A DNA stretch of 64,000 nt. It comes from Gibbsiella quercinecans. GTDB taxonomy: Bacteria; Pseudomonadota; Gammaproteobacteria; Enterobacterales; Enterobacteriaceae. Both the position numbers and the translations under genes were made by a program. Below the pieces are notes generated by a model that saw only the letters and a program-made list of their open reading frames with translations, searched no databases and was not told the origin of the DNA. The stretch spans positions 5,098,925 to 5,162,924 of the forward strand of contig NZ_CP014136.1 in the NCBI RefSeq assembly GCF_002291425.1, given 5' to 3'. Positions within the stretch are counted from its first letter, which is position 1, and every line of letters starts with the position of its first letter. This document shows, piece after piece, positions 1 through 21,210 of this stretch.

Positions 1-24
1 CAGCATTTGAGGCCGTTTGCGTTT

Positions 25-84
25 TTGGCGCACATCTTGCTTGCTGTATAGATGCACTTGTATAGACAAGAATATACAGATGCA
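25..84 (+). promoter_or_regulatory. Promoter and HutC-type operator array before the first ABC operon
   Basis: A near-perfect palindrome CTTGTATAGACAAG lies at 57-70. Half-sites TGTATA (45-50) and TATACA (73-78) flank it at 14-bp steps. A possible promoter is TTGGCG (25-30), a 16-bp spacer and TATAGA (47-52), so a bound repressor would cover the -10 region. HutC operators are known as TGTA-N2-TACA palindromes; that this is one is inferred from the match and from the hut genes downstream. Confidence 0.65.
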
Positions 85-136
85 TTTTCCCGCCCGTCCG
101 GGTGGGTTTATCGGCACAGCACAACAGGAGCGCAGT

Positions 137-1117: not shown

Positions 1118-1134
1118 TTATGGGGAAGACTGAT

Positions 1135-1995
1135 ATGAATTCAACCGTCAGCCAGCAGGCCGTAGAACGTGAACCACAGGCGTTGCCGCCGGCCAAGCCG
1201 CACTGGCATAACCCGATGATGGTGCCGCTGCGGCCCGTCGCGACGCGGTTGCGCTGGTTCCTTGGCCTGGCGTTCTTCGTACTGTTCGTTGCGGTATGGG
1301 GGCTGACGACCTTCGCCGGCGTGGTGTCGCCCACCTTCCTGGCCGATCCGCTCACCATGGTGCACGAAGGCATCCTGCTGTTCACCGAATATAATTTTTC
1401 GTTGGATATCGGCATGACGGTGTTCCGCGTGCTAAGCGGTTTCCTGCTGGCGGCGGTGATCGCCGTGCCGTTGGGCATCCTGATGGGATCGTACAAGCTG
1501 ATCGAAGCCTTTCTGGAGCCGTTTGTTTCTTTCTGCCGCTATCTGCCGGCTTCGGCGTTTATCCCACTGCTGATCCTGTGGGCCGGCATCGGCGAAATGC
1601 AGAAAATCCTGGTGATTTTCATCGGCTCGTTTTTCCAGATTGTGCTGATGGTGGCCGTGGTGGTGGGTTCCGCCCGCCGCGATCTGGTCGAAGCCGCCTA
1701 TACGCTGGGCGCGTCTAACCGCAGCGTGGTGCGCCGGGTGCTGATCCCCGGCGCCGCGCCGGAGATTGCCGAACTGTTGCGCCTGGTGCTGGGCTGGGCC
1801 TGGACCTACGTTATTGTGGCGGAGCTTATCGGCTCTTCCAGCGGTATCGGCCATATGATTGTCGACAGCCAGGCGTTGCTCAATACCGGGCAGATTATCT
1901 TCGGCATTATCGTTATCGGCTGTATTGGCTTGCTGTCCGATCTGTTATTCAAGGCGGCTAACCAGCGCCTGTTTGTCTGGAGCTCACTGCGATGA
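1135..1995 (+). CDS. ABC transporter permease, NitT/TauT family
   Basis: Inner-membrane permease of the importer, 286 aa with about six membrane segments from residue 40 onward. The cytoplasmic EAA loop that docks the ATPase is visible as EAAYTLGASNRSVVRR followed by VLIPGAAPEI. ATG codons also occur at 1114 (overlapping the stop of the binding protein) and 1120. I prefer 1135 because GGGGAAG lies 7-8 bases upstream. Its last bases overlap the ATPase start (ATGA), as expected for translationally coupled subunits. The family is clear; the transported compound is not. Confidence 0.9.
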   Translation: MNSTVSQQAVEREPQALPPAKPHWHNPMMVPLRPVATRLRWFLGLAFFVLFVAVWGLTTFAGVVSPTFLADPLTMVHEGILLFTEYNFSLDIGMTVFRVLSGFLLAAVIAVPLGILMGSYKLIEAFLEPFVSFCRYLPASAFIPLLILWAGIGEMQKILVIFIGSFFQIVLMVAVVVGSARRDLVEAAYTLGASNRSVVRRVLIPGAAPEIAELLRLVLGWAWTYVIVAELIGSSSGIGHMIVDSQALLNTGQIIFGIIVIGCIGLLSDLLFKAANQRLFVWSSLR

Positions 1996-2771
1996 ACAGT
2001 AAACTCAATGTCAGGAACGTATCGCGCATCTTCGCCGGCCCGCACGGCGAGCAGACCCAGGCGCTATTGCCGATTAATTACCAGGTGCAGGAGAATGACT
2101 TCATCACCATTCTCGGCCCCTCTGGCTGCGGCAAATCCACCTTGCTGCGCATCATCGCCGGGCTGGACAGCCCAACCCAGGGCGAAGTGTGGCTGGACGG
2201 CCAGTTGGTCGAAGGGCCGGGCGCCGATCGCGGCATGGTGTTCCAAAGCTATACGCTGTTCCCCTGGCTGACCGTGGAGCAGAACATCCGCTTTGGCCTG
2301 CAGGAGCGCGGTGTGGGCCTGGCCCAGCAGAAAGAACGCAGCGACTACTTCATCAACAAAGTCGGGCTGCGCGGTTTTGAGCACCACTACCCGCGCCAAC
2401 TGTCCGGCGGCATGCAGCAGCGCACGGCAATTGCCCGCGCGCTGGCCAACGATCCGAAAATTCTGTTAATGGACGAGCCGTTCGGCGCGCTGGACAACCA
2501 GACGCGGGTGATGATGCAGGAACTGTTGCTCAATATTTGGGAAGCGTCCCGCAAGACAGTGCTGTTCGTCACCCATGATATCGACGAAGCGATCTTCATG
2601 GCTAACAAGGTGGCTATCTTCAGTGCGCGGCCGGGGCGGATCAAAACCGAAGTGCCGGTCAACTTCCCACACCCGCGTGATTACACCCTGAAAACGTCGC
2701 CGGAGTTTATGGCCATCAAGGCGCGGGTCACGGAAGAGATCCGCAGCGAAACGCTGCAAAGCATGCATTAA
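1992..2771 (+). CDS. ABC transporter ATP-binding protein, NitT/TauT family
   Basis: ATPase that powers the importer, 259 aa. It has Walker A GPSGCGKST at residues 42-50, a Q-loop in MVFQSYTLFPW, the signature LSGGMQQR, Walker B LLMDEPFGALD and the switch histidine in FVTHDIDEA. It resembles the SsuB/TauB group. The gene overlaps the permease by 4 bases and closes the transporter operon. The next 127 bases hold the hutH operator. Confidence 0.92.
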   Translation: MNSKLNVRNVSRIFAGPHGEQTQALLPINYQVQENDFITILGPSGCGKSTLLRIIAGLDSPTQGEVWLDGQLVEGPGADRGMVFQSYTLFPWLTVEQNIRFGLQERGVGLAQQKERSDYFINKVGLRGFEHHYPRQLSGGMQQRTAIARALANDPKILLMDEPFGALDNQTRVMMQELLLNIWEASRKTVLFVTHDIDEAIFMANKVAIFSARPGRIKTEVPVNFPHPRDYTLKTSPEFMAIKARVTEEIRSETLQSMH

Positions 2772-2876: not shown

Positions 2877-2892
2877 CTTGTATATACAGGAA
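2877..2892 (+). promoter_or_regulatory. HutC-type operator over the hutH ribosome binding site
   Basis: TGTATATACA at 2879-2888 is a perfect 10-bp palindrome inside CTTGTATATACAGG. It ends 10 bases before the hutH ATG and overlaps the Shine-Dalgarno sequence CAGGAA (2887-2892). I found no convincing -35 box at the right distance, so it may block readthrough from the transporter operon or an unusual promoter. Confidence 0.65.
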
Positions 2893-2898
2893 TAGACT

Positions 2899-4455
2899 AT
2901 GTTGCCAACCAAACAAGAAGTAAGCGTGGTTGAACTACACCCAGGGCAGGTTGAGCTGGATACGTTGCGCGCCATCTATCGCGGCGGCGTCAAACTGGCA
3001 TTGGCGGAAAGTGCCCGCGGCGCGGTCGAGCTGGCTGCGCAGGCGGTAACGCAGATCCTCGAGCAGGGCAAAGTGGTGTACGGCATTAACACCGGCTTTG
3101 GCAAACTGGCGCAAACGCGCATCCCGGCGCAGCGGTTATCAGAACTGCAGCGCAACCTGGTGCTCTCGCACAGCGTTGGCGTGGGCAACATGCTGCCGGA
3201 CAACGTGGCGCGCCTGATCATGGCGACCAAAATCATCAGCCTGGCACGCGGCCACTCCGGCATTCGCATCGCCGTTATTGATGCGCTGCTGGCACTGTTC
3301 AACGCCGGCGTGATGCCGTGCATCCCGGAAAAAGGCTCGGTGGGCGCCTCGGGGGATTTGGCGCCGCTGGCCCACCTGGCGCAGATGCTGATCGGCGTGG
3401 GTGACGTCACCGTTGACGGCCAGCGTTGCAGCGCCGTCGAAGGGCTTGCCAGGGTCGGGCTGGAACCGTTTGAGCTGGGGCCGAAAGAGGGGCTGGCGCT
3501 GCTCAACGGCACCCAGGTGTCTACCTCGTTGGCGCTGCGCGGGCTGTTTGAAGCTGAACAGGTGTTCGCCGCCGGGCTGGTGGCCGGCGCACTGTCGCTG
3601 GAAGCGATCAAAGGCTCGGTTAAACCGTTTGATCCGCGTATTCACCAGGCGCGCGGCCAGGCCGGGCAGATCGCCGTGGCGCAGGCGGTCAGCGCATTGC
3701 TGGCCGACAGCAGCATCGTATGTTCGCACGTGGATTGCGGCCGGGTGCAGGATCCGTACTCCATCCGCTGTGTGCCGCAGGTGATGGGGGCGTGCCTGGA
3801 CAATCTGCTGCACGCGGCCCGGGTGCTGCGCATTGAGGCGAACGCCGCGTCGGACAACCCGCTGGTGTTCACCGATAACGGCGATGTGATCTCCGGCGGT
3901 AACTTCCACGCCGAACCGGTGGCGTTCGCCGCCGACATTATCGCGCTGGCGGTAGCGGAAATCGGCGCCATTTCCGAGCGCCGGCTGGCGCTGCTGCTGG
4001 ATACCGGGCTGTCCGGCCTGCCGCCGTTCCTGGTGAAGGAAGGCGGCATCAACTCCGGCTTTATGATTGCACAGGTCACCGCTGCGGCGTTGGCCTCCGA
4101 GAACAAATCGTTGGCGCACCCGGGCAGCGTCGACAGCCTGCCGACCTCCGCCAACCAGGAAGACCACGTCTCCATGGCGACCTATGCCGCCCGTCGGTTG
4201 GGGGATATGTGCTTCAACACCGCCGTGGTGGTGGGCGTTGAAGCGATGGCCGCCGCGCAGGGGATCGATTTCCACCGGCCATTACGCAGCTCCGCGTTGC
4301 TGGAACAGCAACTGGCGGCGATCCGCGAACAGGTGCCTTTCCTCGAACAGGATCGCCTGATGGCGCCGGACGTGGAAGCTATGCGCCATTGGGCCACCGC
4401 TGGGCATTGGCCGCAGGCCGTTAGCGCGATTCTGCCAAGCTACGGCGCGCTGTAA
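2899..4455 (+). CDS. hutH: Histidine ammonia-lyase
   Basis: Converts L-histidine to trans-urocanate and ammonia in the cytoplasm, the first step of histidine breakdown. The protein is 518 aa, close to the usual 505-515. The ASG triad that cyclises to the MIO cofactor is at residues 150-152 in [12 protein letters not shown]. Other residues expected in a true HAL are present: the YGINTGFG loop, His91 in LVLSHS, the asparagine of [11 protein letters not shown] and R in QDPYSIR, and the glutamate in NQEDHVSM. These argue for histidine rather than tyrosine or phenylalanine as substrate. It sits between a transporter and urocanate hydratase, and its start is covered by a HutC-type palindrome. Unlike usual hut operons there is no hutI or hutG nearby, so this may be a second, specialised copy. 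Confidence 0.95.
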
Positions 4456-4519: not shown

Positions 4520-6208
4520 ATGAACGATACGATCAAAAATGCCGTGGCACGGGAAGTGCGTGCGCCGCAGGGCACCGAACTGCATTGCAAAAACTGGCTG
4601 ATCGAAGCCGCCTACCGCATGATCCAGAACAACCTGGATCCCGACGTCGCCGAGCGCCCGCAGGATTTGGTGGTGTACGGCGGCATCGGTAAAGCGGCGC
4701 GTAACTGGCCGTGCTTTGAAGCGATCCTGGCCAGCCTGCGGGCGCTTAACCCGGACGAAACGCTGCTGGTGCAATCCGGCAAGCCGGTCGGCGTGTTCAA
4801 AACCCACAGCGATGCGCCGCGCGTGCTGATTGCCAACTCCAACCTGGTGCCACACTGGGCCAACTGGGCGCATTTTCATGAGCTGGATAAGGCCGGGCTA
4901 ATGATGTATGGCCAGATGACCGCCGGCTCCTGGATCTATATCGGCGCGCAGGGCATCGTGCAGGGCACCTACGAAACCTTTGCTGAAGCGGGGCGCCAGC
5001 ATTACGGCGGCGATCTGCGCGGCAAGTGGATCCTGACCGCCGGTTTGGGCGGCATGGGCGGCGCGCAGCCACTGGCCGGGGTGCTGGCCGGCGCCAGCGT
5101 GCTGGCGATCGAATGCCAGGAATCACGTATCGATTTCCGTCTGCGTACCCGTTACCTCGATCATAAATGCGACGATCTGGACGAAGCGCTGGCGCTGATT
5201 GAACAGGCCTGCGCCAAGGGCGAAGCCATTTCGGTGGGGCTGCTGGGCAATGCGGCGGAAATTCTGCCGTTGCTGGCGCAGCGCGCGGCCAACGGCGGCC
5301 CACGCCCGCACATCGTGACCGATCAAACCTCCGCCCACGATCCGCTCAATGGCTATCTGCCGGCCGGCTGGAGCGTCGAGCACTGGCAAGCGGCTCGCAA
5401 CAGCGATCCGCAAAGCGTGGTGAGTGCGGCGCGCCAGTCGATGGCGGTGCACGTTAAGGCGATGCTGGCGTTCCATGAGATGGGCGTACCGACCGTGGAC
5501 TACGGCAACAATATTCGCCAGGTCGCATTGGAGGAAGGGGTGAGCAACGCGTTTGATTTCCCTGGATTTGTGCCGGCCTATATTCGCCCGCTGTTCTGCG
5601 AAGGGAAAGGCCCGTTCCGCTGGGTGGCGCTGTCTGGCGATCCCGAGGATATCTACAAAACCGACGCCAAGCTGAAAGAACTGTTTCCAGATAACGTTCA
5701 CCTGCATAACTGGCTGGATATGGCCCGGCAGCGTATTGCCTTCCAGGGGCTGCCTTCACGTATCTGCTGGCTGGGGCTGGGCGAACGCCATCTGGCGGGG
5801 CTGGCCTTCAACGAAATGGTGCGCACGGGCGAGCTGAAAGCGCCGATCGTCATCGGCCGCGATCACCTGGACTGTGGCTCGGTGGCATCCCCCAATCGTG
5901 AAACCGAAGCGATGCGCGACGGTTCCGATGCGGTGTCTGACTGGCCGTTGCTCAATGCCTTGTTGAGCACCGCGGGCGGGGCAACCTGGGTCAGCCTGCA
6001 CCACGGCGGCGGAGTCGGCATGGGCTTCTCCCAGCATGCCGGGATGGTGATTGTCTGCGACGGCAGCGAAGATGCGGATAAACGCTTGGCCCGCGTGCTG
6101 TGGAACGATCCGGCCACCGGCGTCATGCGCCATGCGGACGCCGGTTACGACAGCGCCGTTGCCTGTGCCGAACAACATCAGCTGAATTTGCCGCTGCTTA
6201 ACCTGTGA
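4520..6208 (+). CDS. hutU: Urocanate hydratase (urocanase)
   Basis: Adds water to urocanate to give 4-imidazolone-5-propionate, using tightly bound NAD+ as electrophile. It is 562 aa, the usual size. Family landmarks are [12 protein letters not shown] near the N terminus, the NAD-binding [35 protein letters not shown], the conserved cysteine (about residue 416) in CWLGLGER, and [15 protein letters not shown] near the end. The start follows AAGGATTT. It lies 64 bases after hutH and 7 bases before the aminotransferase ATG. The next enzyme, imidazolonepropionase, is not in the window. Confidence 0.95.
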
Positions 6209-6215
6209 GGTGAGA

Positions 6216-7373
6216 ATGGAGACGCTTTCAGCCACGGCGCAGGCGGTGCGCCGCCTGGCCCGCCAGCAGGCCAGCGCGCTCGGCGTTTATAACGCCGGGC
6301 TTTCCAGCGACGCCGTGCGTGAACGTTACGGTGTCACTGATATCGCGCGCTTGGCGAGCAATGAAAACCCGCTCGGCGCCAGCCCCCAGGTGCAACTGGC
6401 GTTACACGCGTCGAGCCGCGACAGCGGGGTGTATCCGGATCCCAACAGCCTGGCGCTGCGGGCGGAAATCGCCGGGCAAACCGGCGTGCCGTCTGCGCAG
6501 ATCGTGGTGGGCAACGGTTCGGAAAACATCCTTGAGATGCTGTGCCTGGCCTTTATCAATCCGGGCGATCGGGTGGTGACGTTGCTGCCGTCATTCGGCC
6601 TGCATGAGATATACCCGCGCATGATGGGCGCTGAAGTCACTATGGTGCCGGTCAGCGGGGAGTTGGAGTTCGATCTGGCCGCCTGGCGCCAGGCGCTGCA
6701 GCAACCGGCCAAAATGGTGGTGTTCAGCAACCCGTCGAACCCGGTGGGCTGCATGCTGGGGCGCGACGTGTTCCTGCAACTGCTCGACGCGGTGCCGCAG
6801 GATTGCCTGTTGGTGATCGACGAAGCCTATTATGAGTACTGCGCACACGAGGCGGACTACCCGGATAGCCTGTCACTGTTGCCGCAGCAGCCCCGGCCGT
6901 GGATCGTGCTGCGCACCTGCTCGAAGGCCTATGGGCTGGCGGGGTTGCGCGTGGGCTACGGCATGGCCTGCGATGCCGAGCTGATCGGGTTGCTGGACCG
7001 GGTGCGCACGCCGTTCAATATCAACCGTTCGGCGCAAAGCGCGGCGCTGGCGGCACTGCGCGATCGCGATCATGTGGCCTACAGCGTGGCCTGGGTCAGC
7101 ACCGCGCGCAGCGCCATGGCGGCCAAACTGCGCGACATGGGGCTAAAAGTGGCGCCCTCATACGCCAACTTCCTGTTTTTTGACTGCGGCCATCCCAGCA
7201 CAGAAATCGCAGAAGCGCTGCTGGCGCACGGCATTATCGTCAAACCCTGGCGTGAGCCCGGTTATCAGCAGTTCCTGCGGGTCTCGATCGGCAGCGCGGA
7301 AGATAACCGGCGCTTTCTGGCGGCGCTGGCGCAGGTGCTGGCCGCCGCCCAGAGCCAGATCAAAATGGCGTAA
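6216..7373 (+). CDS. HisC-like PLP-dependent aminotransferase
   Basis: Fold-type I aminotransferase of the histidinol-phosphate aminotransferase (HisC) group, 385 aa. Visible parts are ASNENPLG at the N terminus, the cofactor asparagine in SNPSNPVG, the aspartate in VIDEAYYEY, the PLP lysine in TCSKAYGLAGLR, and an arginine in FLRVSIG that should bind the substrate carboxylate or phosphate. I chose ATG 6216 over GTG 6210 because GAGG (6207-6210) is well spaced to it. The hut setting makes histidine, histidinol or another imidazole amine a likely substrate, for example histidine to imidazolepyruvate. A dedicated his-operon role is unlikely here. The substrate is not proven. Confidence 0.8.
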   Translation: METLSATAQAVRRLARQQASALGVYNAGLSSDAVRERYGVTDIARLASNENPLGASPQVQLALHASSRDSGVYPDPNSLALRAEIAGQTGVPSAQIVVGNGSENILEMLCLAFINPGDRVVTLLPSFGLHEIYPRMMGAEVTMVPVSGELEFDLAAWRQALQQPAKMVVFSNPSNPVGCMLGRDVFLQLLDAVPQDCLLVIDEAYYEYCAHEADYPDSLSLLPQQPRPWIVLRTCSKAYGLAGLRVGYGMACDAELIGLLDRVRTPFNINRSAQSAALAALRDRDHVAYSVAWVSTARSAMAAKLRDMGLKVAPSYANFLFFDCGHPSTEIAEALLAHGIIVKPWREPGYQQFLRVSIGSAEDNRRFLAALAQVLAAAQSQIKMA

Positions 7374-7562
7374 GGTTAACGCAGTATGACCAGCCGGTTG
7401 TGATAGGCTGGTGGTGCCGGTGAACGTCGCGCATGCGGCGGTCGCCGAGGCGGGAAGGTACAGTATGATTATCGTTCGCGCGTGGGCGCCGCCAGGCCGG
7501 CGCCGCGCGCAGCACGCAAGCCTTATTGGCTTGCGGCCACAGGTTGGCTGGAGGGAAGTCGC
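7374..7562. other. Spacer with hairpin before the dehydrogenase gene
   Basis: This 189-base gap contains an 8-bp inverted repeat, CGCAAGCC/GGCTTGCG, at 7515-7535 with a TTATT loop, about 27 bases before the next start codon. There is no T-run, so it is not a normal terminator. It may affect mRNA stability or translation of the dehydrogenase. I saw no clear promoter. Confidence 0.35.
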
Positions 7563-8648
7563 ATGTCTGTAACACAAATCGCTTTTCCGGCGCGCATCGT
7601 GCGCGGCGCCGGGGCGTTGGAAGAGATCGGAACACTGTGCGCGGATTACGGTTCGCGTGCCATGCTGATTGGCGGCGAACGGGCGCTGGCGGTGACGGAG
7701 GCGACCATCGGTAATTGCCTGCGGGCCGCGGCGGTGGAGTTGGTGGCCAGCGAACATTTCGGCGGCGAGTGCACCGAGCAAAACATTAACCGCCTGGCGG
7801 CGCAGGCCCGGGCTGAAAAGGCACAGGTGCTGATTATCGCCGGCGGCGGTAAAGCACAGGACACCGGCAAAGCGGTCGGTAATCTTTGCGCCTTGCCGGT
7901 GATTACCGTTCCCACCATTGCCGCCACCTGTGCGGCGGTAACGCCGCTGACCGTGCGCTATTACCCCGACGGGCATTTCCGCGACATGCTGCACCTGGCG
8001 AACTCGCCGGTGGCGGTGGTGATCGACAGCCAACTGCTGGCCCAGGCGCCGACGCGCTGGCTGGCTGCCGGGCTGGGGGATACTCTGGCTAAATGGTATG
8101 AATACCGCGCCATCAGCCGTAACGGCGCAGTGGGCGGGATGGCGCTGGCGGCGCAGGCCAATAGCCGTATTTGCTACCAATTGATTGAAACCTACGGCGC
8201 CGCGGCCAGCCAGGCGGCGGAGCGCGGGGAAGCCACGCCGGAGCTGGAGCAGGTGCTGGACGCCATCTTCCTGTTCGCCGGGCTGACATCGCTGATGGGC
8301 AGTGGTGCCCATGCCGCCGCGGCGCATGCGCTGTTTGAAGGCTTCACCGTTTGCGACAAAACCCGCGATTTCGGCCACGGCCTGTTGGTAGGGTATGGCA
8401 ACCTGTGCCTGCTGGCGATCGAACAACGCAGCGACGAAGAGCTGCTGGAGGCGCTGAAACTGGCGCAAGCCTGTAATATCCCGCTGCACATGGCGCAGAT
8501 CGCCGACGATCTGACCGCGGACGAGATCGACGCCATTGTGGCTGCGGCGGTGGATGCGCCGGATATGGCCAATATGCCGCAGCCGGTCACGTCGGTACAG
8601 GTGGCCCAGGCCATCCAGCGGGTGCACGCGCTGGCGCAGCGGCTGTAA
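7563..8648 (+). CDS. GldA/HcxA-like metal-dependent dehydrogenase
   Basis: Iron-type alcohol dehydrogenase of the glycerol-dehydrogenase subgroup, 361 aa. The dinucleotide-binding GGGKAQDTGK and the three expected metal ligands are present: Asp in AGLGDTLAKW and His in GSGAHAAAAH and DFGHGLLVG. Start 7563 has GGAGG well placed upstream. The closest E. coli analogue in type is HcxA (YbdH), a 2-oxoacid reductase encoded beside the aminotransferase YbdL. The same pairing of aminotransferase and dehydrogenase here suggests interconversion of a 2-oxoacid and a 2-hydroxyacid, such as imidazolepyruvate and imidazolelactate. Glycerol dehydrogenase remains an alternative. Confidence 0.75.
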   Translation: MSVTQIAFPARIVRGAGALEEIGTLCADYGSRAMLIGGERALAVTEATIGNCLRAAAVELVASEHFGGECTEQNINRLAAQARAEKAQVLIIAGGGKAQDTGKAVGNLCALPVITVPTIAATCAAVTPLTVRYYPDGHFRDMLHLANSPVAVVIDSQLLAQAPTRWLAAGLGDTLAKWYEYRAISRNGAVGGMALAAQANSRICYQLIETYGAAASQAAERGEATPELEQVLDAIFLFAGLTSLMGSGAHAAAAHALFEGFTVCDKTRDFGHGLLVGYGNLCLLAIEQRSDEELLEALKLAQACNIPLHMAQIADDLTADEIDAIVAAAVDAPDMANMPQPVTSVQVAQAIQRVHALAQRL

Positions 8649-12738: not shown

Positions 12739-13521
12739 TTAGATGCTGGCCAGGTAGCCGCCGTCGACGTAAAGGATCTGCCCGGTAATATAGGCGGCCG
12801 CCGGGCTGGCGAGGAAGATGGCGGCGCCGGTGAGATCCTGCAGCTCGCCAAAGCGCCCAATCGGGATCTTGCTTTGCATGGCGTTGCACCATTCGCTGTC
12901 CTGGTAGAACACTTCGGTCATGGCGGTTTGGAAATAGCCGGGGCCGATGCCGTTCACCCGGATGCCATGGGGCGCCCATTCGCTGGCCAGCGCGCGTGTC
13001 ATGCCCGCCAGCCCGGATTTCGATGCGCCATAAGCGGTGGCGCCCGGCACGCCAACGGCGGTGGTCAGCGAACACAGGTTGATGATGCTGCCGCTGCCCT
13101 GCGCCATCATTAAGCGTGCGGCGGCCTGCGCGCAGAAAAACGCCCCCTTCAGGTTGGTATTGAGGATGTTGTCCCACAGCGCTTCGTCAACCTCCAGCGA
13201 CGGGCGCACCTGTTCAATACCGGCGTTGTTGATCAAGATATCCAACGGTTTATCGGCCAGGCTGGCGAACGCCGCGCGGATCGACGCCGGATCCTGCACG
13301 TCCAGTTGCACCATCTGCGGATGTTCGCCCCAATTGTTCAACTGTTGCGCCACCGCTTGCAGTGCGGCACGCTGGCGGCCGGCGACGATCACCTGCGCGC
13401 CGGCCTGGGCGAGCCCTATGGCCAGCGCCTGACCGATGCCGCGCGTCGCCCCGGTTACCAGCGCCCGTTTGCCCTGCAGTGAAAACGGCGCCAGCCCAGG
13501 CGGTAAAGTTGCGTTTTGCAT
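12739..13521 (-). CDS. Short-chain dehydrogenase/reductase
   Basis: NAD(P)-dependent SDR, 260 aa. It has the cofactor motif TGATRGIG near residue 23, NNAG, and the catalytic tyrosine and lysine in YGASKSG with a serine upstream in NLCSLTT. The C-terminal YVDGGYLASI is usual for classical SDRs of the gluconate 5-dehydrogenase or ketoreductase type. ATG 13521 follows GGAGAAACT. It is the last gene of the seven-gene leftward operon, 9 bases after the zinc dehydrogenase. It probably oxidises or reduces a secondary alcohol of the imported compound; the substrate is unknown. Confidence 0.8.
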   Translation of the reverse strand: MQNATLPPGLAPFSLQGKRALVTGATRGIGQALAIGLAQAGAQVIVAGRQRAALQAVAQQLNNWGEHPQMVQLDVQDPASIRAAFASLADKPLDILINNAGIEQVRPSLEVDEALWDNILNTNLKGAFFCAQAAARLMMAQGSGSIINLCSLTTAVGVPGATAYGASKSGLAGMTRALASEWAPHGIRVNGIGPGYFQTAMTEVFYQDSEWCNAMQSKIPIGRFGELQDLTGAAIFLASPAAAYITGQILYVDGGYLASI

Positions 13522-13530: not shown

Positions 13531-14520
13531 TTAAGGCACCACGATGGTTTTCAACGCGGCGGCATCGCCGGCCAGCAACGCTTGATAAGCCTGCGGCAGC
13601 GCGTCGAGGGCAATCGGCGGCGACAGCCACTGCGCCAGTTTATCGGCAAGCTGCGGCAGCAGCGCGATCGCCTGTTGCTGTTCGTCGGCAAATACGCTGC
13701 AGCCCACCAACGTGATTTCACGTTCTACCAGGCGGTTGGCGTCAATCGGCACCTGGCCGTGGAACAGGCCGACCATGGCGATGCGCCCGGCGGGGGCGAT
13801 ATGTTCAATCAGCTGATTGAGCACGCCGGCCGAGCCGGTGGCTTCCACGGCAAAAGCAATGGCCTGCGGCAGCGGGCGCCCTAATTCCAGCGCTTGCAGC
13901 GGCAGAACGCGCTGCAGCAACGCCAGGCGTTGCGGGTTGCGCTCGGCCAATAACAGCGGGCAGGCGCGCAGATGGTGCAGCAGCAGCGCGACCAGCCCGC
14001 CGATGGTGCCGCCGCCGGCGACCAATACCGGCGCGCCGTGCGGTGGGTTAAGTTGGTTTACCACCCGCAATGCGACCCCCAGCGGTTCGCTGAGGGCGGC
14101 GATCGGCGCTGGCAGCGTTGCCGGCACCTTCAACAAGCTGGATGCGGGCAACAGGGCCAGTTCGGCAAAGCCGCCGTCACACACTTCGCCGACGAAGCCA
14201 AGCCGCGGGCACAGGTTGCTGCGCCCGGCCTGGCAAGCGGGGCAAACGCGGCAGCAGGCGCGGGAATCCACCACCACGCGATCGCCCACCGCCAGCCCGC
14301 GCACCGCGGTGCCGATCGCCAGCACTTCACCACAAAACTCATGCCCCGGCGTTACCGGCAGTTGGGCGATCCACTGGCCGGTGCGGAAGTTGTGCAGATC
14401 GGAGCCGCAAATGCCGGCCGCCAGCACCCGCAGGCACACCCCGTCGGCGGGCGGGGCGGCGGGCGGGGGGATCTGTTCGATGCGCAGATCGCCAATGCCA
14501 TAAAAACGGGCGGCTTTCAT
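13531..14520 (-). CDS. Zinc-dependent alcohol dehydrogenase (MDR family)
   Basis: Medium-chain dehydrogenase, 329 aa, of the sorbitol/idonate/threonine dehydrogenase group. Catalytic zinc ligands are visible in GICGSDLH and TPGHEFCGE. The four structural zinc cysteines occur in CRVCPACQAGRSNLC and just before it. The nucleotide-binding VAGGGTIGGL starts the Rossmann fold. Its ATG overlaps the kinase stop (ATGA), so the two are coupled. The combination with an SDR, a kinase and a HisD paralogue points to stepwise oxidation of a hydroxylated compound. Confidence 0.82.
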   Translation of the reverse strand: MKAARFYGIGDLRIEQIPPPAAPPADGVCLRVLAAGICGSDLHNFRTGQWIAQLPVTPGHEFCGEVLAIGTAVRGLAVGDRVVVDSRACCRVCPACQAGRSNLCPRLGFVGEVCDGGFAELALLPASSLLKVPATLPAPIAALSEPLGVALRVVNQLNPPHGAPVLVAGGGTIGGLVALLLHHLRACPLLLAERNPQRLALLQRVLPLQALELGRPLPQAIAFAVEATGSAGVLNQLIEHIAPAGRIAMVGLFHGQVPIDANRLVEREITLVGCSVFADEQQQAIALLPQLADKLAQWLSPPIALDALPQAYQALLAGDAAALKTIVVP

Positions 14521-15842
14521 GCTTCACCGCCGTTCGCCGGATCGATAAGCTTGAACCAGCGGCTGGCGATATCCTCCCCGGCCAGTGGTTCGCTGCCCAG
14601 CATCACGGCGATGGCGAACCCCAGCGCCGAGCTGGTGACATTGTGGCCACCGCCGCCACCGTCGCGCAGATCCAACACCAGCGTTGGGCAGCAGAACAGC
14701 GCCAGCCGCATCAGCCGTTGCCAGTGGGCCGGCAGCCAACCGCGGGCGTTGAGCTCGGCCAATAATGGCCGCCAGTAGCCTTCACCTTTGCTTTGCAGGA
14801 AGGGCGCACGCAGCGGCGTCAACTGCCAGTTGTGTTCCACCAGCAGGCGGTCGCCTTGCAACTGCACGTTGATTTGGTAACGCTCATCACAGCGCTGGGG
14901 TTCATACAGCCAGAACGGATGGGCAAAGATGTTGTGAAACGTGGCCTTGATCTCCGCCAGCAGCGCCGGGATATGGCGCCCGGCGAAGGCGGGATCGAAA
15001 CTCACCAGTTGCGGCTCCGGGTGTTCGGTTTCATACCACACGTTGGCGTTGTGCGCGTCGCCGTGGGCGGTGACGACGCCGTGCTGCGCTAGCCTTGCCG
15101 GTGCCAGCAGCTCGCCGGCCTGCAACAGCAATTCCCCCAGCGTATGCGGGTAAAGTATGCCGTTTATCTGCCAGCGCAGGTTTTTCAACTGCGCCCACGG
15201 CAGCGTGAGCTGCGCCAGCGTGAACGTTTGGCCGACGTAGAACTGCGCCACCCGGCCACCGAAGCCGGGCGCGGCGCCAGGGCTGACCAGCCGGTGGTGG
15301 AACAACTGGTGGATCGGCTCTCGTGCTACTGCGCCAGGCTCGCCGGCCTGCAGCGTCGGCAGGGTCAGCGCCAGGATTTCCCGATCGGCGCGTTGCTGGG
15401 CGGCAATCACCGGCGCGGCGTCGTCCCAGCGTTGATGCAGTTCGATCTCGCGGCAAACGTCCGCCAGGCGCCGATCGTGGCGCAGGCGGTACAGCAGGAT
15501 CTGCCGCCCCGGTTCACCGCAGGCGTACAGCGGCACGTCGACGCGAAAGCCGCTGTCGCGCAGCAGCTCGGCGTTGTAATACTCCTCGATGGTGTGATCT
15601 TCGCCTTCCTCATGGTGATACTTGAAGAACAGCCCGCGTCCATCGGCCAACGTCAGCGTGCCGTTCAGCGAGTTCAGGCTGTACTGATCGCGGTTGATGG
15701 CCAACTGGGTTACCGTCGCGCCGGTAATCTCCCCGACCAACTGGCGCAGTTTGGCGGCGGCCTGCTGCCATTCACCGGCGTGCGTCAGGGCGCGCGCCTG
15801 GGCCGCCAGCGGTTCACGCTGGGGAATGGGATTATCGGTCAT
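14517..15842 (-). CDS. APH/choline-kinase-fold small-molecule kinase, unknown substrate
   Basis: Putative phosphotransferase, 441 aa. The catalytic loop reads VVTAHGDAHNANVW, the HxDxxxxN (Brenner) motif of the APH/choline/fructosamine kinase superfamily. The metal-binding aspartate follows in VSFDPAFAG. The N-lobe has a TLADGRGLFFKYHHEE segment whose lysine may bind ATP. The C-terminal region after residue 300 is longer than in simple aminoglycoside kinases. ATG 15842 follows GGGAGG. Position between a HisD paralogue and two dehydrogenases, in an importer operon, argues for a catabolic metabolite kinase rather than antibiotic resistance. I do not recognise a named family. Confidence 0.65.
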   Translation of the reverse strand: MTDNPIPQREPLAAQARALTHAGEWQQAAAKLRQLVGEITGATVTQLAINRDQYSLNSLNGTLTLADGRGLFFKYHHEEGEDHTIEEYYNAELLRDSGFRVDVPLYACGEPGRQILLYRLRHDRRLADVCREIELHQRWDDAAPVIAAQQRADREILALTLPTLQAGEPGAVAREPIHQLFHHRLVSPGAAPGFGGRVAQFYVGQTFTLAQLTLPWAQLKNLRWQINGILYPHTLGELLLQAGELLAPARLAQHGVVTAHGDAHNANVWYETEHPEPQLVSFDPAFAGRHIPALLAEIKATFHNIFAHPFWLYEPQRCDERYQINVQLQGDRLLVEHNWQLTPLRAPFLQSKGEGYWRPLLAELNARGWLPAHWQRLMRLALFCCPTLVLDLRDGGGGGHNVTSSALGFAIAVMLGSEPLAGEDIASRWFKLIDPANGGEA

Positions 15843-15864
15843 CACAACCTCCCGGGGTTTGGGG

Positions 15865-17187
15865 TTAACGGCCGAGCAGGGTTTTGCGTAACGGAGATAC
15901 CGCCAGCGCATGGCCGGTAAAACCTTCGTACACGGCAAAATCGTGCGCCTTATCCGCCAGGGCGTCATAACCGCTGCGGGTGACGTAACCGACGGAAATG
16001 CGTTTCATATAGTCGAACACCGAAAGCGGCCCGGCCACTTTGGCCGCGGCGTTGGTGGGCAGCACCGCGTTCGGCCCCAGCACAAAGTTGCCCAGCGTTA
16101 CCGGCGTATAGTTGCCGAGCAAAATCTCGCCGGCGTTACGGATTGTCGCCATCACCGCCAGCGGTTCTTCCGCCAGAATTTCCAGGTGCTCCGGCGCGTA
16201 CTGGTTGACGAACTCCACGGCGGTGGCGAAGTCACGGGTCAACACCACGCCGCCATGTTCGCCGCCCAGCACCGCCTGGGAAAAGCCGGCGCGTTTTTCA
16301 TCCAATTGCGCCCAGTAGCCCGGCAGGGCGGCGATGGCCTGTTCCGCTACCTGGCGGCTGGAGGTGACCAGCCAGGCGGAGGAATCCGGGCCGTGTTCCG
16401 ATTCGATGATCAGATCCAGCGCGGCCAGGGCGCCGTTGGCGGTTTCATCCGCCAGTATAATGCTTTCGCTCGGGCCAGCCGGCACGCCGGGATCGATATG
16501 TTGCGCCAGCAGGCGTTTGGCGGCAACCAGCCACGGGCTGCCGGGGCCGACGATTTTCAGGCACTTGGGCACCGTTTCCGTACCGTAGGCCACGGCCGCC
16601 ACGCCCTGGGCGCCGCCGCACTTATAAATATCCTTGATACCGACCAGGCGGGCCGCCACCAGTGTGGCGTCGTCCACCTTGCCGTCCGGGCCGGGCGGGG
16701 TGATCACCACCGGACGCGGCACGCCGGCCACCACCGCAGGAATGGTGGTCATCAGCAGCACGCTGGGGAAAGAACCTTTACCGCGCGGCACATAGCAGGC
16801 TACGGAGTCGATCGGCACCATCCGGTCGCCGGCAAAGGCGCCGGGCTGCATCTCCTTCAACCACATTTCTTCGGGCTTTTGCGCCTGGTGGAAGGCGCGG
16901 ATATTTTCCGCCGCAAAGGAAATGGATTCGATCACCTTGGGATCCAGCCGGGCAAACGCGGCTTCAAATTCGCTCTCTTCGGCGCGGATCGCCATTTGTT
17001 CAACCTGCACGCCGTCGAATTCACGGGCAAAACGCCGCAGCGCCGCATCACCTTCGCTGCGCACGGCGGCGATAATCGGTTGAACCCGTTCGATGAAGAA
17101 CGACAGGTCCGCTTCAGTGCGTTTAAACAACGCGTCCGGCAACTGTTGGCAATCGCTAAGATCGTGAAAGGTCACTGTCTGTGTCAT
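15865..17187 (-). CDS. Histidinol-dehydrogenase-like enzyme with altered active site
   Basis: HisD-superfamily NAD-dependent dehydrogenase, 440 aa, full length. The catalytic pair Glu-His is kept in QYAPEHL, and one zinc-ligand histidine is kept in SEHGPDS and another in FTGHAL. Compared with E. coli HisD, Gln259 is Glu (IIESEHG), Asp360 is Asn (LGNFVLG) and His367 is Ala (GPNAVLP). The zinc and substrate pocket is therefore changed. Known HisD paralogues such as HpsN oxidise other alcohols (sulfopropanediol) to acids. The HutC-linked context suggests an imidazole alcohol instead. I consider both open. ATG 17187 has AGGAG upstream; the gene starts 4 bases after the ATPase. Confidence 0.8.
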   Translation of the reverse strand: MTQTVTFHDLSDCQQLPDALFKRTEADLSFFIERVQPIIAAVRSEGDAALRRFAREFDGVQVEQMAIRAEESEFEAAFARLDPKVIESISFAAENIRAFHQAQKPEEMWLKEMQPGAFAGDRMVPIDSVACYVPRGKGSFPSVLLMTTIPAVVAGVPRPVVITPPGPDGKVDDATLVAARLVGIKDIYKCGGAQGVAAVAYGTETVPKCLKIVGPGSPWLVAAKRLLAQHIDPGVPAGPSESIILADETANGALAALDLIIESEHGPDSSAWLVTSSRQVAEQAIAALPGYWAQLDEKRAGFSQAVLGGEHGGVVLTRDFATAVEFVNQYAPEHLEILAEEPLAVMATIRNAGEILLGNYTPVTLGNFVLGPNAVLPTNAAAKVAGPLSVFDYMKRISVGYVTRSGYDALADKAHDFAVYEGFTGHALAVSPLRKTLLGR

Positions 17188-17191
17188 GCGT

Positions 17192-17968
17192 TTACTCCTG
17201 GGCAAATTCGTGTTGGGAAGCCTGTTCCCGGATGGATTTTAGAACCTGGCGTTGCAGCTCGATGTAGCGCATGTCGGCGCTGATCTCTTCACTGCGCGGG
17301 CGAGGCAAGTCAACCTGGAAGGTGGTGTTGATGTTGCCGGGCCCCATCACCACGATGCGATCCGACAGATACACGGCCTCTTCAATATCGTGGGTGACGA
17401 ACATCACCGTCAGGCGGTGGGTTTCCCAGATGCGCGTCAGCAACAGCTGCATCTGGTGGCGCGTCATGGCGTCCAGCGCGCCGAAAGGCTCATCCATCAG
17501 CAGGATTTTCGGCCGGTATGACAGCGCCCGGGCGATCGCCACCCGTTGTTTCATCCCGCCGGAAAGCTCGTTGGGGTAGGCGTCGGCAAACGGCGTCAGG
17601 TTCACCAGTGCCAGATGGTTATCGGCGATCTCCCGGCATTCGGCCCGGGCATAGCCGGCGGCCTTGAGCGCGAATTCGATGTTTTGCCGCGCCGTCAGCC
17701 ACGGCAGCAACGTATAGGACTGGAACACCACGCCGCGATCGATGCCCGGCCCGCGGATATCCTCGCCGTCGACGCGCACGCAGCCGTCGTCAAAATCCTC
17801 CAGCCCGGCGGCGATGGAAAGCAGGGTGCTTTTGCCGCAGCCGGAGCTGCCGACCACGGAAACGAACTCGTTGTTGCCCAACGTCAGATCTATGTTATGC
17901 AATACCTGGCGCGTGCCCTTGCCGACCCGGAAGCTTTTGTTCAGGCCGCTGATGGTTAAGGTAGCCAT
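17192..17968 (-). CDS. Second NitT/TauT ABC transporter, ATP-binding protein
   Basis: ATPase subunit, 258 aa. It shows VGSSGCGKST (Walker A), VVFQSYTLLPW (Q-loop), LSGGMKQR, LLMDEPFGALD and FVTHDIEEA. ATG 17968 overlaps the permease stop in TAATG. The reading frame is open further upstream, but that part lies in the permease gene and is not coding. It pairs with the permease and binding protein upstream in the same leftward operon. Confidence 0.92.
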   Translation of the reverse strand: MATLTISGLNKSFRVGKGTRQVLHNIDLTLGNNEFVSVVGSSGCGKSTLLSIAAGLEDFDDGCVRVDGEDIRGPGIDRGVVFQSYTLLPWLTARQNIEFALKAAGYARAECREIADNHLALVNLTPFADAYPNELSGGMKQRVAIARALSYRPKILLMDEPFGALDAMTRHQMQLLLTRIWETHRLTVMFVTHDIEEAVYLSDRIVVMGPGNINTTFQVDLPRPRSEEISADMRYIELQRQVLKSIREQASQHEFAQE

Positions 17969-18840
17969 TATTTGCGCCTCGCGTTGTAACGGAACAGAAC
18001 GCGCTCTGCGGCGCGCATCACCTGATCGGTAACCAGGCCAAGCAGGCCGAGCAGCAGGATGTAGCCGATGATGGTGTCGGTCTGGAAGAAACGCTGCGAC
18101 ACCACGATGCGGTAGCCCAGCCCGGAGGTGGAGGCAACCAGTTCGGCCAGCACCAGCCAGGTCCATGCCCAGCCCAGGCTGATGCGCAGTGCATCCCAGA
18201 TTTCCGGCAGTGCGCCGGGCAGCACGATTTTGAACAGAATGTTGCGATCCGGCATGCCGAGCGTGCGCCCCAGGCCGACAAAATCACCCGGAACGCGTTT
18301 TACCGCATCAATCACCATCAATACCTGTTGGAAGAAGGTGCCGATCCAGATAATCAGGAATTTCTGGAAGTCGTCGGTGCCGGTCCACAGGATGGTCAAC
18401 GGCACAAAGGCGACGACCGGCATGTAGCGGATGAAGTCCACCAGCGGCTCGGTGATCGCCTTGAAAAAACCATAGCAGCCGGCCAGTACGCCGATCACGA
18501 TCGACATCAGCGATGAGATCAGAAAGGCGATGGAAATACGATACAGACTGCTGCGGATATCGCTCCACAGTGTGCCGTCTTGCGCCAGGCTGATCATGCG
18601 CTGCCAAACGTTGCCCAGCGTCGGCATAAAGATCGCCGGCACCGCGCCGCTACGGGTGGCCAGCCACCAACTGAGCAGCAGCAGGGCGAATACCGCCACC
18701 GCAATGCTGACGAACAGTTTGCGCGAGGGCGTTTTGCCGATCACAAACAGGCCGGCGGATCGGCGTTTTTTATGATTGGGTAGATGGGGTGGGCGCGCTT
18801 GGGCGCGCGTCTCCGGCGCATCCAATTTCACTGAACTCAT
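17968..18840 (-). CDS. Second NitT/TauT ABC transporter, permease
   Basis: Inner-membrane permease, 290 aa. A basic, proline-rich N-terminal tail of about 40 residues precedes about six membrane segments. The EAA-loop equivalent is GLGRTLGMPDRNILFKI followed by VLPGALPEIWDAL, with the usual conserved glycine. AGAGGAAA lies before ATG 18840. It is separated from the binding-protein gene by 114 bases holding two hairpins. Confidence 0.9.
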   Translation of the reverse strand: MSSVKLDAPETRAQARPPHLPNHKKRRSAGLFVIGKTPSRKLFVSIAVAVFALLLLSWWLATRSGAVPAIFMPTLGNVWQRMISLAQDGTLWSDIRSSLYRISIAFLISSLMSIVIGVLAGCYGFFKAITEPLVDFIRYMPVVAFVPLTILWTGTDDFQKFLIIWIGTFFQQVLMVIDAVKRVPGDFVGLGRTLGMPDRNILFKIVLPGALPEIWDALRISLGWAWTWLVLAELVASTSGLGYRIVVSQRFFQTDTIIGYILLLGLLGLVTDQVMRAAERVLFRYNARRK

Positions 18841-18865
18841 CGGTGTTTCCTCTGGTGTTATCTCG

Positions 18866-18900
18866 CACCCTGTCGGCCCCGGTATGCTGCCGGCAGGGTG
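18866..18900 (-). repeat. Imperfect inverted repeat in the transporter operon
   Basis: CACCCTG-T-CGGC pairs with GCCGG-CAGGGTG across a short loop. Together with the adjacent terminator-like hairpin it makes the gap between binding protein and permease highly structured. Such stems often protect upstream mRNA from 3' decay. Confidence 0.4.
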
Positions 18901-18954: not shown

Positions 18955-19956
18955 TTACAGGCCGTTAACAAACTTCGGTTCGATAATTTGTTCTGGCGTG
19001 ACCGGCTTGCTTACCAGTTTGGCTTCCGTGGCCGCTTTCAGCACGTGGGCAAAGGTCACTTTGGCGAAATGTTCGCTCAATACCTGTTTATTTTCCGCCA
19101 GCGTGTAGTACTTCACGCCGTCGAAGGCGGTTTCCAGGTCTGCCGGGCTGGCGCCCACCTGTTTGGCGATGATTGCCCGGCCTTCGGCGGTGTTTTGCTG
19201 ATAGTGCTGCAGGGCGGCATCCCAGCTTTTTATCATCGCGGCTACCTGGCCCGGTTTGTTTTTGATGGCTTCATCGCGCACCACCAGTACATCGCTGATC
19301 AGGCCCGGATCGGATTCACCGCTGTAGAGCAGTTTTACGTTGGGATCCTGTTTTTTCGCCATGCTCAGGTAGGGCTCGTAGGTGACGGCGGCGGTGACGC
19401 GCTTGGCGATCAAGGCGCTGCCGGCGGAATCGGCCGGCATAGGCACCGGCACGATATCGCTCCACTGCATGTTGGCCGAGGCGAGGGCGCTGTGCAGCAG
19501 AATGTCGCTGGTGGTGCCCTCTTCATAGGCAACCTGTTTGCCCTTCAGATCGGTCAGAGCGTTGATGCCCGCGCCGACAATCAGCGCATCGGCGGTTTGG
19601 CTCTGGTCGAGCAGCAGCACGATTTTCACCGGCAAACCGGCGGAAACCATCCCCATCGCGGTATGCGTGGCGATATTGGCCGCATCGATCTGGCCGCTGG
19701 CCAGCGCGGCGTTAATGTCTTTGTCTTCGGCAAAGTTGATGATCTCAACCTTCTCCAGCCCTTGCTGTTTAAATAAATCAAGTTGGTTGGCTACGTGCCA
19801 TTGGCCATAGCCCAGCCAGGGCTCGATGCCCATTTTAAAAGTACCGGGCTCCGGTTTGGGCAGCGGGGCGTCGGCGGCGAGTGCCTGGGCCGACAGCATC
19901 CCGATACAGCAGGCGGCGGCGAGCATTTTTTTCAACGTTGTTATTGGTTGCTTCAT
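18955..19956 (-). CDS. Second NitT/TauT ABC transporter, substrate-binding protein
   Basis: Periplasmic binding protein, 333 aa. MKQPITTLKK opens a signal peptide with a hydrophobic core and the cleavage region AQALAADA. The mature start, FKMGIEPWLGYGQWHVA, is typical of SsuA/TauA/ThiY-like proteins. I chose ATG 19956 because GAGGG lies 5-9 bases upstream; ATG 19968 is possible. First gene of the operon, with a HutC-type operator 58 bases before it. Its ligand may be related to that of the first transporter, but the two binding proteins differ clearly in sequence. Confidence 0.9.
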   Translation of the reverse strand: MKQPITTLKKMLAAACCIGMLSAQALAADAPLPKPEPGTFKMGIEPWLGYGQWHVANQLDLFKQQGLEKVEIINFAEDKDINAALASGQIDAANIATHTAMGMVSAGLPVKIVLLLDQSQTADALIVGAGINALTDLKGKQVAYEEGTTSDILLHSALASANMQWSDIVPVPMPADSAGSALIAKRVTAAVTYEPYLSMAKKQDPNVKLLYSGESDPGLISDVLVVRDEAIKNKPGQVAAMIKSWDAALQHYQQNTAEGRAIIAKQVGASPADLETAFDGVKYYTLAENKQVLSEHFAKVTFAHVLKAATEAKLVSKPVTPEQIIEPKFVNGL

Positions 19957-20013
19957 TGGAACCCTCATCTTTCGCACTGGTGAGTTGATGTCCTCATCGG
20001 TAATGTCCGTCCA

Positions 20014-20041
20014 TGTATATACAAGCCAAAGCAAGTTAAAG
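20014..20041 (-). promoter_or_regulatory. HutC-type operator and possible promoter of the second transporter operon
   Basis: TGTATATACA at 20014-20023 is the same 10-bp palindrome as before hutH, and on the leftward strand it reads CTTGTATATACA. A possible -35 TTGGCC lies 17 bases upstream of the TGTATA part, so the palindrome would overlap the -10, as in the first promoter. Confidence 0.65.
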
Positions 20042-20286: not shown

Positions 20287-21210
20287 TCAATTCGTCCGAT
20301 AGCGGCCATTCCCGGATCTGCCGGCAATGGAACGGCAGGTCTGATAAAGACCGTCAATCAGGCCGCCGTTGCGGCTGCGCAGATGGATCATGCCGAAGGC
20401 CGGACTCCAGTAGTCCGATTCCAGCGGAATACGCACGATCGCTTCAGACAACGGCCCATTTTCGGTAGGCAGCGGACAAAGGTTGAACACCGAATAACCG
20501 AGGCCGGCAGCCACCATATTGTATGCCATCTCGCGCGAACTCACCGTATAGGCGACCTGAGGTCTGATCCCATGATGATCGAAAAGTCCCGCGTAATAGC
20601 GCCGGGCGCCATCGAAATCGAGCAGAATGTATGGCTCTTCTTCCAACTCTGATAAATGGATTGTGTTTTTCCCGGCGAGCGGATGGGTCGGGTGCAGGCC
20701 GACGTGAAGGGGAGGTTTGAACAACTCGACGAACGCCAGCGAGGGGTGGAGATCGTCATTGAAGGTAAAAGCCGCCGCGAGTTTGTCGGAACGAACCGCT
20801 TCTGAAAGTTCTTTCGAACCGTGCTCAACGAGCTGGATATGTCCGTTCAAAACAGAACGGGAGAACTGAGCGAGCAGCGCCGGCATGATAAGCGGCCCGG
20901 CGCTGGCAAGCACCCCCAGAGAAATATCGCGCTCCCAATCCAGGGGGATATGCGCCGCCGCCTGTTCAAACCCCCGATAGGCGCTGAGAAACTCTTCGGC
21001 GAGCGCGGCGAATCGTTCCCCGTCGCGGGTCAGTTTCATTCCTTTGGCCGGTTCGCTGAGGAACAGGCTGATATGCAGCTTGGCTTCGATAAGGCGAATG
21101 GCTTCACGGATCGAGGACACGGAAACCGACATGCTTTCGGACGCTTTAGCGAGCGAACCGGTCTGTTTTACCGCGACAACATAATGCAGGTGTTTGATCG
21201 AATAGGACAC
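20287..21210 (-). CDS. LysR-family transcriptional regulator
   Basis: LysR-type regulator, 307 aa. The N-terminal winged helix-turn-helix covers about residues 5-62 (HLHYVVAVKQTGSLAKAS), followed by an effector-binding domain. The start is GTG 21210 with AGGTGA six bases upstream. It is divergent from the MHS transporter and amidohydrolase genes, and the shared gap holds a T-N11-A box, so it most likely controls those genes. It also lies upstream of the second ABC operon in the same direction, so a role there cannot be excluded. Confidence 0.88.
   Translation of the reverse strand: MSYSIKHLHYVVAVKQTGSLAKASESMSVSVSSIREAIRLIEAKLHISLFLSEPAKGMKLTRDGERFAALAEEFLSAYRGFEQAAAHIPLDWERDISLGVLASAGPLIMPALLAQFSRSVLNGHIQLVEHGSKELSEAVRSDKLAAAFTFNDDLHPSLAFVELFKPPLHVGLHPTHPLAGKNTIHLSELEEEPYILLDFDGARRYYAGLFDHHGIRPQVAYTVSSREMAYNMVAAGLGYSVFNLCPLPTENGPLSEAIVRIPLESDYWSPAFGMIHLRSRNGGLIDGLYQTCRSIAGRSGNGRYRTN

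Follow-up and report, generated by a model that had tools for sequence, protein, structure and literature searches.

The DNA analysed here (the window, 64,000 nucleotides of the Gibbsiella quercinecans genome) carries a gene for a HisD-family dehydrogenase, referred to below as HISDL. The gene lies in an operon transcribed leftwards in the computed order solute-binding protein, permease, ATPase, HISDL, KIN, MDR and SDR, with intergenic gaps from the ATPase on of 4, 22, -4 and 9 nt. The features of this arm are the following.

20287..21210, minus strand: LysR-type regulator adjoining the operon (profile searches)
20012..20025, minus strand: HutC-operator-like palindrome CTTGTATATACATG, 56-69 nt before the likely first start codon of the operon
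18955..19956, minus strand: NMT1/SsuA-type solute-binding protein, likely start 19956 (profile searches)
17968..18840, minus strand: permease of the ABC importer (profile searches)
17192..17968, minus strand: ATPase of the ABC importer, taurine/nitrate/sulfonate-transporter type (profile searches)
15865..17187, minus strand: HISDL, HisD-family dehydrogenase with Glu262, Asn367 and Ala374 (profile searches, alignment, structure model)
14517..15842, minus strand: KIN, 441 aa, small-molecule kinase fold (structure model)
13531..14520, minus strand: MDR, zinc-type medium-chain alcohol dehydrogenase (profile searches)
12739..13521, minus strand: SDR, short-chain dehydrogenase, gluconate/deoxygluconate dehydrogenase-like (profile searches)

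A sigma-70 scan of positions 12400-20600 found no promoter-like site, and terminator-like sites were not in excess. Next to the cluster are genes for an MFS transporter and an M20 peptidase (21358-23885). An M20 protein of the acetylornithine-deacetylase type lies near HISDL in 11 loci, mostly of acetic acid bacteria (e.g. L041:12346-13716), and a deacylation step common to these clusters is possible.

The reading frame of HISDL is unbroken from the ATG at 17187 to the stop at 15865 (440 aa), and the protein scores 458.7 bits against the Histidinol_dh profile (cut-off 27) and 440.1 bits against TIGR00069 (cut-off 243.8). In the alignment with E. coli HisD (PDB 1k75 chain), which served as reference and gives the residue numbering, Gln259 is replaced by Glu (Glu262 of HISDL), Asp360 by Asn (Asn367) and His367 by Ala (Ala374), exactly the three changes that an earlier note on this DNA had claimed. 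His262 (His265), Glu414 (Glu421) and His419 (His426) are unchanged, and so is the catalytic pair Glu326/His327 (Glu333/His334 in the motif YAPEHL), which that note had also read as intact. Two of the four HisD zinc ligands (Gln259, His262, Asp360 and His419) are replaced, by Glu and Asn, and on the alignment the zinc-site changes are a reciprocal exchange of a Gln/Asp pair for a Glu/Asn pair.

This exchange is fixed among the nearest relatives, which are the best 80 of 140 found and hence close kin: all 80 have Glu259 and Asn360, and in all 80 the catalytic Glu-His pair and Glu414 are invariant. A decayed copy is ruled out, the frame being intact and the catalytic residues being kept in every one of these best 80 of 140. 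Position 367 is less uniform, with Ala in 74/80 and His in 6/80 of the same best 80 of 140, and one further copy of the HISDL type (L107/L120) has Asn there. When HisD, HpsN and other paralogues were added in an alignment of 62 rows, Glu/Asn was found in 43/43 rows of the HISDL clade and Gln/Asp in 19/19 of the others, and in the tree the HISDL type forms one side of a branch with 100/100 support. The tree program warns that long branches meet, and therefore only the unity of the HISDL clade is used here and not its placement.

In the metal geometry described in PMC11382572, the ligand at position 259 is axial and that at position 360 equatorial, and the Asp of HpsN that corresponds to Asp360 could not be changed to Ala without loss of activity. 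Because of that loss, Asn at position 360 might impair the zinc site of HISDL. The third change, which the earlier note had counted as an altered substrate contact, is real, but it says little alone, since in the histidinol dehydrogenase of M. truncatula the residue matching His367 touches a substrate oxygen through its backbone carbonyl, while the counterpart of Glu414 forms a hydrogen bond with the substrate imidazole (PMC5585171).

Like HisD (TIGR00069; PDB 1kae, 5vld), HISDL has the catalytic Glu-His pair, two zinc-ligand histidines, Glu414 and the fold. Its AlphaFold model has a mean pLDDT of 94.6, and the nearest structure is the histidine-bound plant enzyme 5vld_C (Z 50.6, rmsd 1.9, 424 aligned residues, 34% identity), tied with other HisD entries. 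HISDL differs from HisD by the Glu/Asn exchange, by a GKGSF sequence in place of the GSAPL-type loop of HisD, by its location outside the his operon and by forming a clade of its own. The Gibbsiella genome (5.55 Mb, one contig) contains three family members, namely a normal HisD, an HpsN-related copy (L002) and HISDL. Looking for a normal HisD in a his operon, as the earlier note had advised, proved informative: it sits between hisG and hisC (hisGDC, L001), and because it is present HISDL is not the biosynthetic HisD of this genome. Of the relatives with a species name, those of Serratia inhibens and S. plymuthica are nearest, being 88% identical at the protein level. The third copy, L002 (G000:C1:4823898-4825112), lies beside a LacI-type regulator. 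Its loop reads GKYPL, unlike both the GSAPL of HisD and the GRY[AS]H of HpsN, and the copy forms a small clade of its own with L097, L105 and L106.

The resemblance to HpsN requires separate consideration. HpsN (PDB 8v35, 9cp7, 8wwe) is likewise a HisD-fold protein, is catabolic and is encoded in an operon with an SDR, an MDR and a transporter; it shares that operon with HpsO (SDR) and HpsP (MDR) (PMC11131964). The HISDL model aligns with HpsN 9cp7_A over 422 residues (Z 47.6, rmsd 2.5). It could be supposed that HISDL, like HpsN, acts on a small non-imidazole diol, a sulfonate or another, and that the hut neighbourhood described below reflects shared nitrogen and carbon regulation only; the SsuA/NMT1-type importer and the trio of SDR, MDR and HisD-fold enzyme, matching HpsO, HpsP and HpsN, fit this supposition. 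However, HISDL is only about 30% identical to HpsN, has GKGSF where HpsN has the motif GRY[AS]H with its sulfonate-binding His, and has Asn-Phe where HpsN has the Asp-Lys pair (352-353). Characterised HpsN falls in a separate clade (100/100), the neighbours of HISDL are hut and not sulfonate genes, and among the scanned operon proteins profile searches gave no match to a sulfolactate or sulfite-releasing enzyme. The HpsN parallel drawn in the earlier note therefore holds for the operon with its SDR and Zn-MDR and fails for the sulfonate motif. Oxidation of DHPS in the manner of HpsN is kept only as a rival, and a quite unlikely one, given the missing HpsN residues and the HutC-like operators.

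On the other side of the window cluster lies the hut arm, whose hut genes are those of textbook histidine breakdown.

17..2771, plus strand: second NMT1-type ABC importer, comprising solute-binding protein, permease and ATPase (profile searches)
57..70, plus strand: HutC-operator-like palindrome before the hut-side importer (motif scan)
2877..2890, plus strand: HutC-operator-like palindrome before hutH (motif scan)
2899..4455, plus strand: hutH, histidine ammonia-lyase (TIGR01225 684.2 bits, cut-off 539.15)
4520..6208, plus strand: hutU, urocanate hydratase (TIGR01228 954.4 bits, cut-off 375)
6210..7373, plus strand: hisC paralogue, histidinol-phosphate-transaminase-like (TIGR01141 301.2 bits, cut-off 276.55)
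7482..8648, plus strand: GldA-like iron-type alcohol dehydrogenase (profile searches)

The hisC paralogue reaches 530.4 against PRK05166, slightly below the cut-off of 540. The subunits of the hut-side importer are 27%, 36% and 46% identical to those on the HISDL side. The genes hutG, hutI, hutC, hutF and hutD lie directly to the left of the window (L084), so that the HISDL operon adjoins hutHU, hutGI, hutC and hutFD, the hut regulon under HutC, and itself carries a HutC-operator-like site. In Rahnella (L006) and Hafnia (L009) the hut and HISDL arms are adjacent. In the window they are separated by a sucrose set (LacI-type regulator, GH32 and LacY-type permease, 8811-12657), which is also found between the arms in Serratia inhibens and S. 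plymuthica and not in the Rahnella locus. The name hutTu is given to a urocanate transporter in a review (PMC8871633).

The HutC consensus is TGTA-N2-TACA (PMC12977541), and for hutIG of P. aeruginosa little similarity to this consensus is reported (PMC12772324). Palindromes of the CTTGTATATACA type are found at 57-70, 2877-2890 and 20012-20025. The window has 9 matches with at most two mismatches (both strands of a palindrome counted) against 1.46 expected, and at least 9 occurred in 0/100 shuffles; L084 has 4 against 0.71 expected, which was reached in 2/200 shuffles. The four L084 matches make up two sites, one where hutI begins (its 5' end) and the other, if internal ATGs are the starts, in the gap between hutC and hutF. 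The site before the HISDL operon is conserved: among the 35 eligible operons, i.e. those of relatives in which a solute-binding gene precedes HISDL, 29 have it with at most two mismatches, 21 of them with the exact core, and 6 are without it. The scan covered 450 nt of upstream sequence and extended about 40 nt beyond the point where the aligned solute-binding protein starts. In the controls, 40 rounds of dinucleotide shuffles gave a mean of 0.075 and a maximum of 1, and a site was present in 43/1050 stretches drawn at random from these loci. The site occurs in Enterobacterales, Pseudomonas, Salinicola, Vibrio and Acidocella, among others; as many carriers are close kin, the 29 site-bearing operons are not 29 independent events. 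We infer from these matches that HutC binds the operator of the HISDL operon. A perfect palindrome also precedes the Pot-type importer of the differently built Granulosicoccus clusters L063 and L071, and L066 has one with a single mismatch; in the acetic-acid-bacterial clusters no site was found at up to two mismatches, except two unlikely two-mismatch matches (L068, L069). A chance neighbourhood with hut is ruled out by the operator control with shuffles and random stretches.

The association with hut can also be followed at the level of genomes. A hut gene was present in the stored flanks of 29/80 loci (best 80 of 140) and none was seen in 51/80, some of these flanks being short. Considering the 58 HISDL genomes (48 from the 80 loci and 10 of 18 other positive genomes), hutU was found in 51 and no hutU match in 7. 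It lies at most 25 kb from HISDL in 14/58, or in 13/56 after merging apparent duplicates (G057/G585 and G140/G589 each look like one genome), where simple arithmetic for a 50-kb span in a 5-Mb genome gives about 1% by chance. In a sample of the family, hutU occurs in 78/198 genomes and a close HISDL (E 1e-140) in 5/198, all five with hutU, and the spread of HISDL is therefore patchy. The HISDL gene gave no blastn match in E. coli genomes.

The partner genes were counted by tblastn with hand-set identity cut-offs in the flanks of the best 80 of 140 relatives. Near these 80 an SDR was found in 67, KIN in 61 and an MDR in 39; the importers were an NMT1-type solute-binding protein in 40, an NCS1 permease in 16 and a Pot-type solute-binding protein in 11; an FMN alpha-hydroxyacid dehydrogenase was present in 27, the hisC paralogue in 19 and the GldA-like enzyme in 7. 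The importer type varies by lineage, and SDR and KIN are mostly constant. An alternative clustering gave FMN 34, KIN 57, SDR 54 and MDR 35, and the tblastn figures are preferred because choosing ORFs by length put antisense frames in place of HISDL in several GC-rich loci. The FMN alpha-hydroxyacid dehydrogenase (Pfam FMN_dh) is absent from the Gibbsiella island; the sole match in the genome is 38% identical and lies elsewhere.

For KIN, searches of Pfam and NCBIfam at E 0.001 were negative, as was a sequence search of the PDB at E 10. The KIN model (pLDDT 89.7) has the fold of the APH/methylthioribose kinase/PsiK superfamily, aligning with PsiK 8zic over 323 residues (Z 22.1, rmsd 4.1) and with MTR kinase 2pup_A over 316 (Z 18.4, rmsd 4.9), but at only about 10% identity. 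The motifs sought in KIN were those that we take to mark such kinases, a catalytic-loop HGDxxxxN followed by a metal-binding Asp. H260, G261, H264, N267, D283 and P284 are invariant in 29 aligned rows, and D262 is kept in at least 90%.

In some genomes the HISDL type is the only kind of family member found. In a survey of chosen, non-random genomes (14 and 49), in which a normal HisD was defined by more than 500 bits against PF00815 and absence rests on assemblies that are possibly incomplete, no such match was found in G205, G231, G602, G612, G620, G621 and G622 of the first set, nor in G241, G269, G289, G610, G614, G619, G623, G624, G627, G628 and G629 of the second. G237 has a single TIGR00069 match, of the HISDL type, and in G584 the second match is truncated (317 bits). 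Scoring 15 genomes for hisF placed G205, G231, G237, G602, G612, G620 and G622 above the cut-off and G621 below it. As G602, G612 and G621 also carry copies of the HpsN or the 'second' type, five genomes (G205, G231, G237, G620 and G622) have hisF while every HisD-family member found in them belongs to the HISDL clade. In these either the step is absent, another enzyme performs it, the assembly has a gap, or the HISDL variant oxidises histidinol. These five genomes leave room for histidinol as a substrate despite the altered metal site, and they suggest, at the level of gene content, that members of the HISDL clade can oxidise L-histidinol to L-histidine. The same genomes are what would favour HISDL as a reserve HisD for making histidine, but the Gibbsiella genome has its normal HisD in hisGDC and a biosynthetic spare is hardly expected in a hut-type regulon, which makes that explanation very unlikely.

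In G205 a second HISDL (G205:C10:270629-271936, L120) lies outside the cluster and has Asn at position 367, and the cluster-type copy, L119, is accompanied by importer, SDR and KIN; L120 could be the biosynthetic HisD of this genome. G231, G237, G241, G269 and G289, which belong to one genus, have one copy each, and the four that were read have Glu259, Asn360 and Ala367.

Two aspects of the earlier expectation that this protein is unlikely to be the biosynthetic HisD have to be distinguished. First, it stands that HISDL is a HisD paralogue whose metal site is altered, in a genome with a normal HisD elsewhere. Second, the implication that the changes speak against histidinol or other imidazole alcohols as substrates finds no support, considering the hut island, the HutC-like operator, the invariant Glu414, the five genomes and the absence of the HpsN sulfonate motif. 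HISDL probably serves a side branch under HutC control through which an imidazole alcohol, either histidinol or its hydroxy analogue, enters histidine breakdown. As to the full scheme, we infer with reasonable though far from complete confidence that HISDL is a zinc- and NAD-dependent four-electron dehydrogenase which converts the CH2OH group of an imidazole alcohol to a carboxylate in this side branch of histidine utilisation.

According to this scheme the NMT1-type importer would take up an imidazole compound, on whose hydroxyls SDR, MDR and perhaps the GldA-like enzyme would act. In HISDL the zinc would be held by the exchanged Glu/Asn pair together with His265 and His426 of the partner subunit, and two hydride steps would be carried out by Glu333/His334, as described for HDH and HpsN. 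The product would be histidine if the substrate is histidinol, or imidazole-lactate if it is the 2-hydroxy analogue, imidazolyl-propanediol; in the latter case the FMN alpha-hydroxyacid dehydrogenase and the hisC paralogue would lead through imidazole-pyruvate to histidine. The histidine would then be degraded by HutH and HutU, and urocanate would release HutC, so that the HISDL operon would be switched on together with the hut genes. Between the two substrates our expectation is split about evenly: imidazolyl-propanediol is favoured because of the FMN dehydrogenase and the diol-type dehydrogenases, and histidinol because of the genomes with no other HisD and the hisC paralogue.

The operators, the hut island, the invariant catalytic pair and Glu414, and the HDH-like predicted fold speak for the imidazole branch, as do the occurrence of hutU in HISDL genomes, the FMN dehydrogenase and hisC paralogue near a number of relatives, and the five genomes with hisF and no other family type. 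Against it stand an importer type best known for sulfonates, taurine and nitrate, the lack of the FMN dehydrogenase in the Gibbsiella island, the 51/80 loci (best 80 of 140) in which no hut gene was seen, the 6/35 operons without a site, the 7/58 HISDL genomes without a hutU match, the impairment that Asn360 might cause, and KIN, which has no step in the proposed scheme.

KIN would find a place if the end of histidine biosynthesis were reused for catabolism. The kinase would phosphorylate imidazole-glycerol or a related polyol, an IGPD, in the Gibbsiella genome the normal HisB, would dehydrate it, the hisC paralogue would aminate imidazole-acetol phosphate, a phosphatase would yield histidinol, and HISDL would deliver histidine to HutH. 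A kinase-fold protein is indeed encoded near 61/80 relatives (best 80 of 140), the hut arm contains a hisC paralogue, and a protein with a double IGPD domain lies near HISDL in two Desulfobacteraceae loci, L074 and L075, and about 4-9 kb from it in G237 and G269. Yet the window island has no IGPD gene, no KIN was seen at L074 or L075, the SDR, MDR and FMN dehydrogenase are left unexplained, and imidazole-glycerol has, to our knowledge, no common natural source. This route is therefore unlikely, and the side branch set out above remains our preferred reading.

A wider reading is put forward tentatively, and we regard it as doubtful: HISDL, as a HisD type with an exchanged zinc pair, would form with a new kinase family and the hisC paralogue an undescribed, patchily spread hut branch under HutC that turns environmental imidazole polyols or histidinol into histidine as a source of carbon and nitrogen, and in some lineages HISDL and the double-IGPD protein would have replaced the biosynthetic HisD and HisB. 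Pertinent to the last part, no normal IGPD match was found in G231, G237, G241, G269 and G289, four of which have, as the sole IGPD type found, a double-IGPD protein related to that of the two Desulfobacteraceae loci. Its distance from HISDL is about 9 kb in G237, where the two are not in one operon, and about 5 kb in G269, while in G241 and G289 it lies on other contigs than HISDL. The protein of L075 (15928-17178) has 416 aa and two IGPD-like halves, which by eye seem to have retained different portions of the active-site motifs.

Catabolic reuse of the HisD fold is already known from HpsN; the new element is that the hut regulon includes a HisD-family clade whose metal site is exchanged. 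In open-licence PMC texts, represented mostly by titles and the beginnings of abstracts, nothing was found on this cluster or on a hut branch that combines a HisD-family dehydrogenase with KIN. If the proposal is true, imidazole alcohols enter histidine breakdown through a regulated feeder branch, the reciprocal exchange of two zinc ligands around a kept catalytic pair is a natural experiment in metal-site evolution, and KIN, whose kinase-fold family matches nothing in Pfam or NCBIfam, is placed in a pathway where its substrate can be looked for.

The HISDL protein has matches at E 1e-5 in 382/72,556 plasmid records, 54 of them with at least 60% identity; most of the remaining matches, below 60%, may be other family members. 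Two public plasmid records call the gene hisD and tag it as histidine biosynthesis, and with such labels the cluster is easily mis-annotated. On the Klebsiella quasipneumoniae plasmid pKAM645_5 (L149) the cluster includes an alpha-hydroxy acid oxidase and a GhrA-like reductase and is flanked by insertion sequences of the IS630 and IS903 types; an arsenic-resistance set follows at a greater distance.
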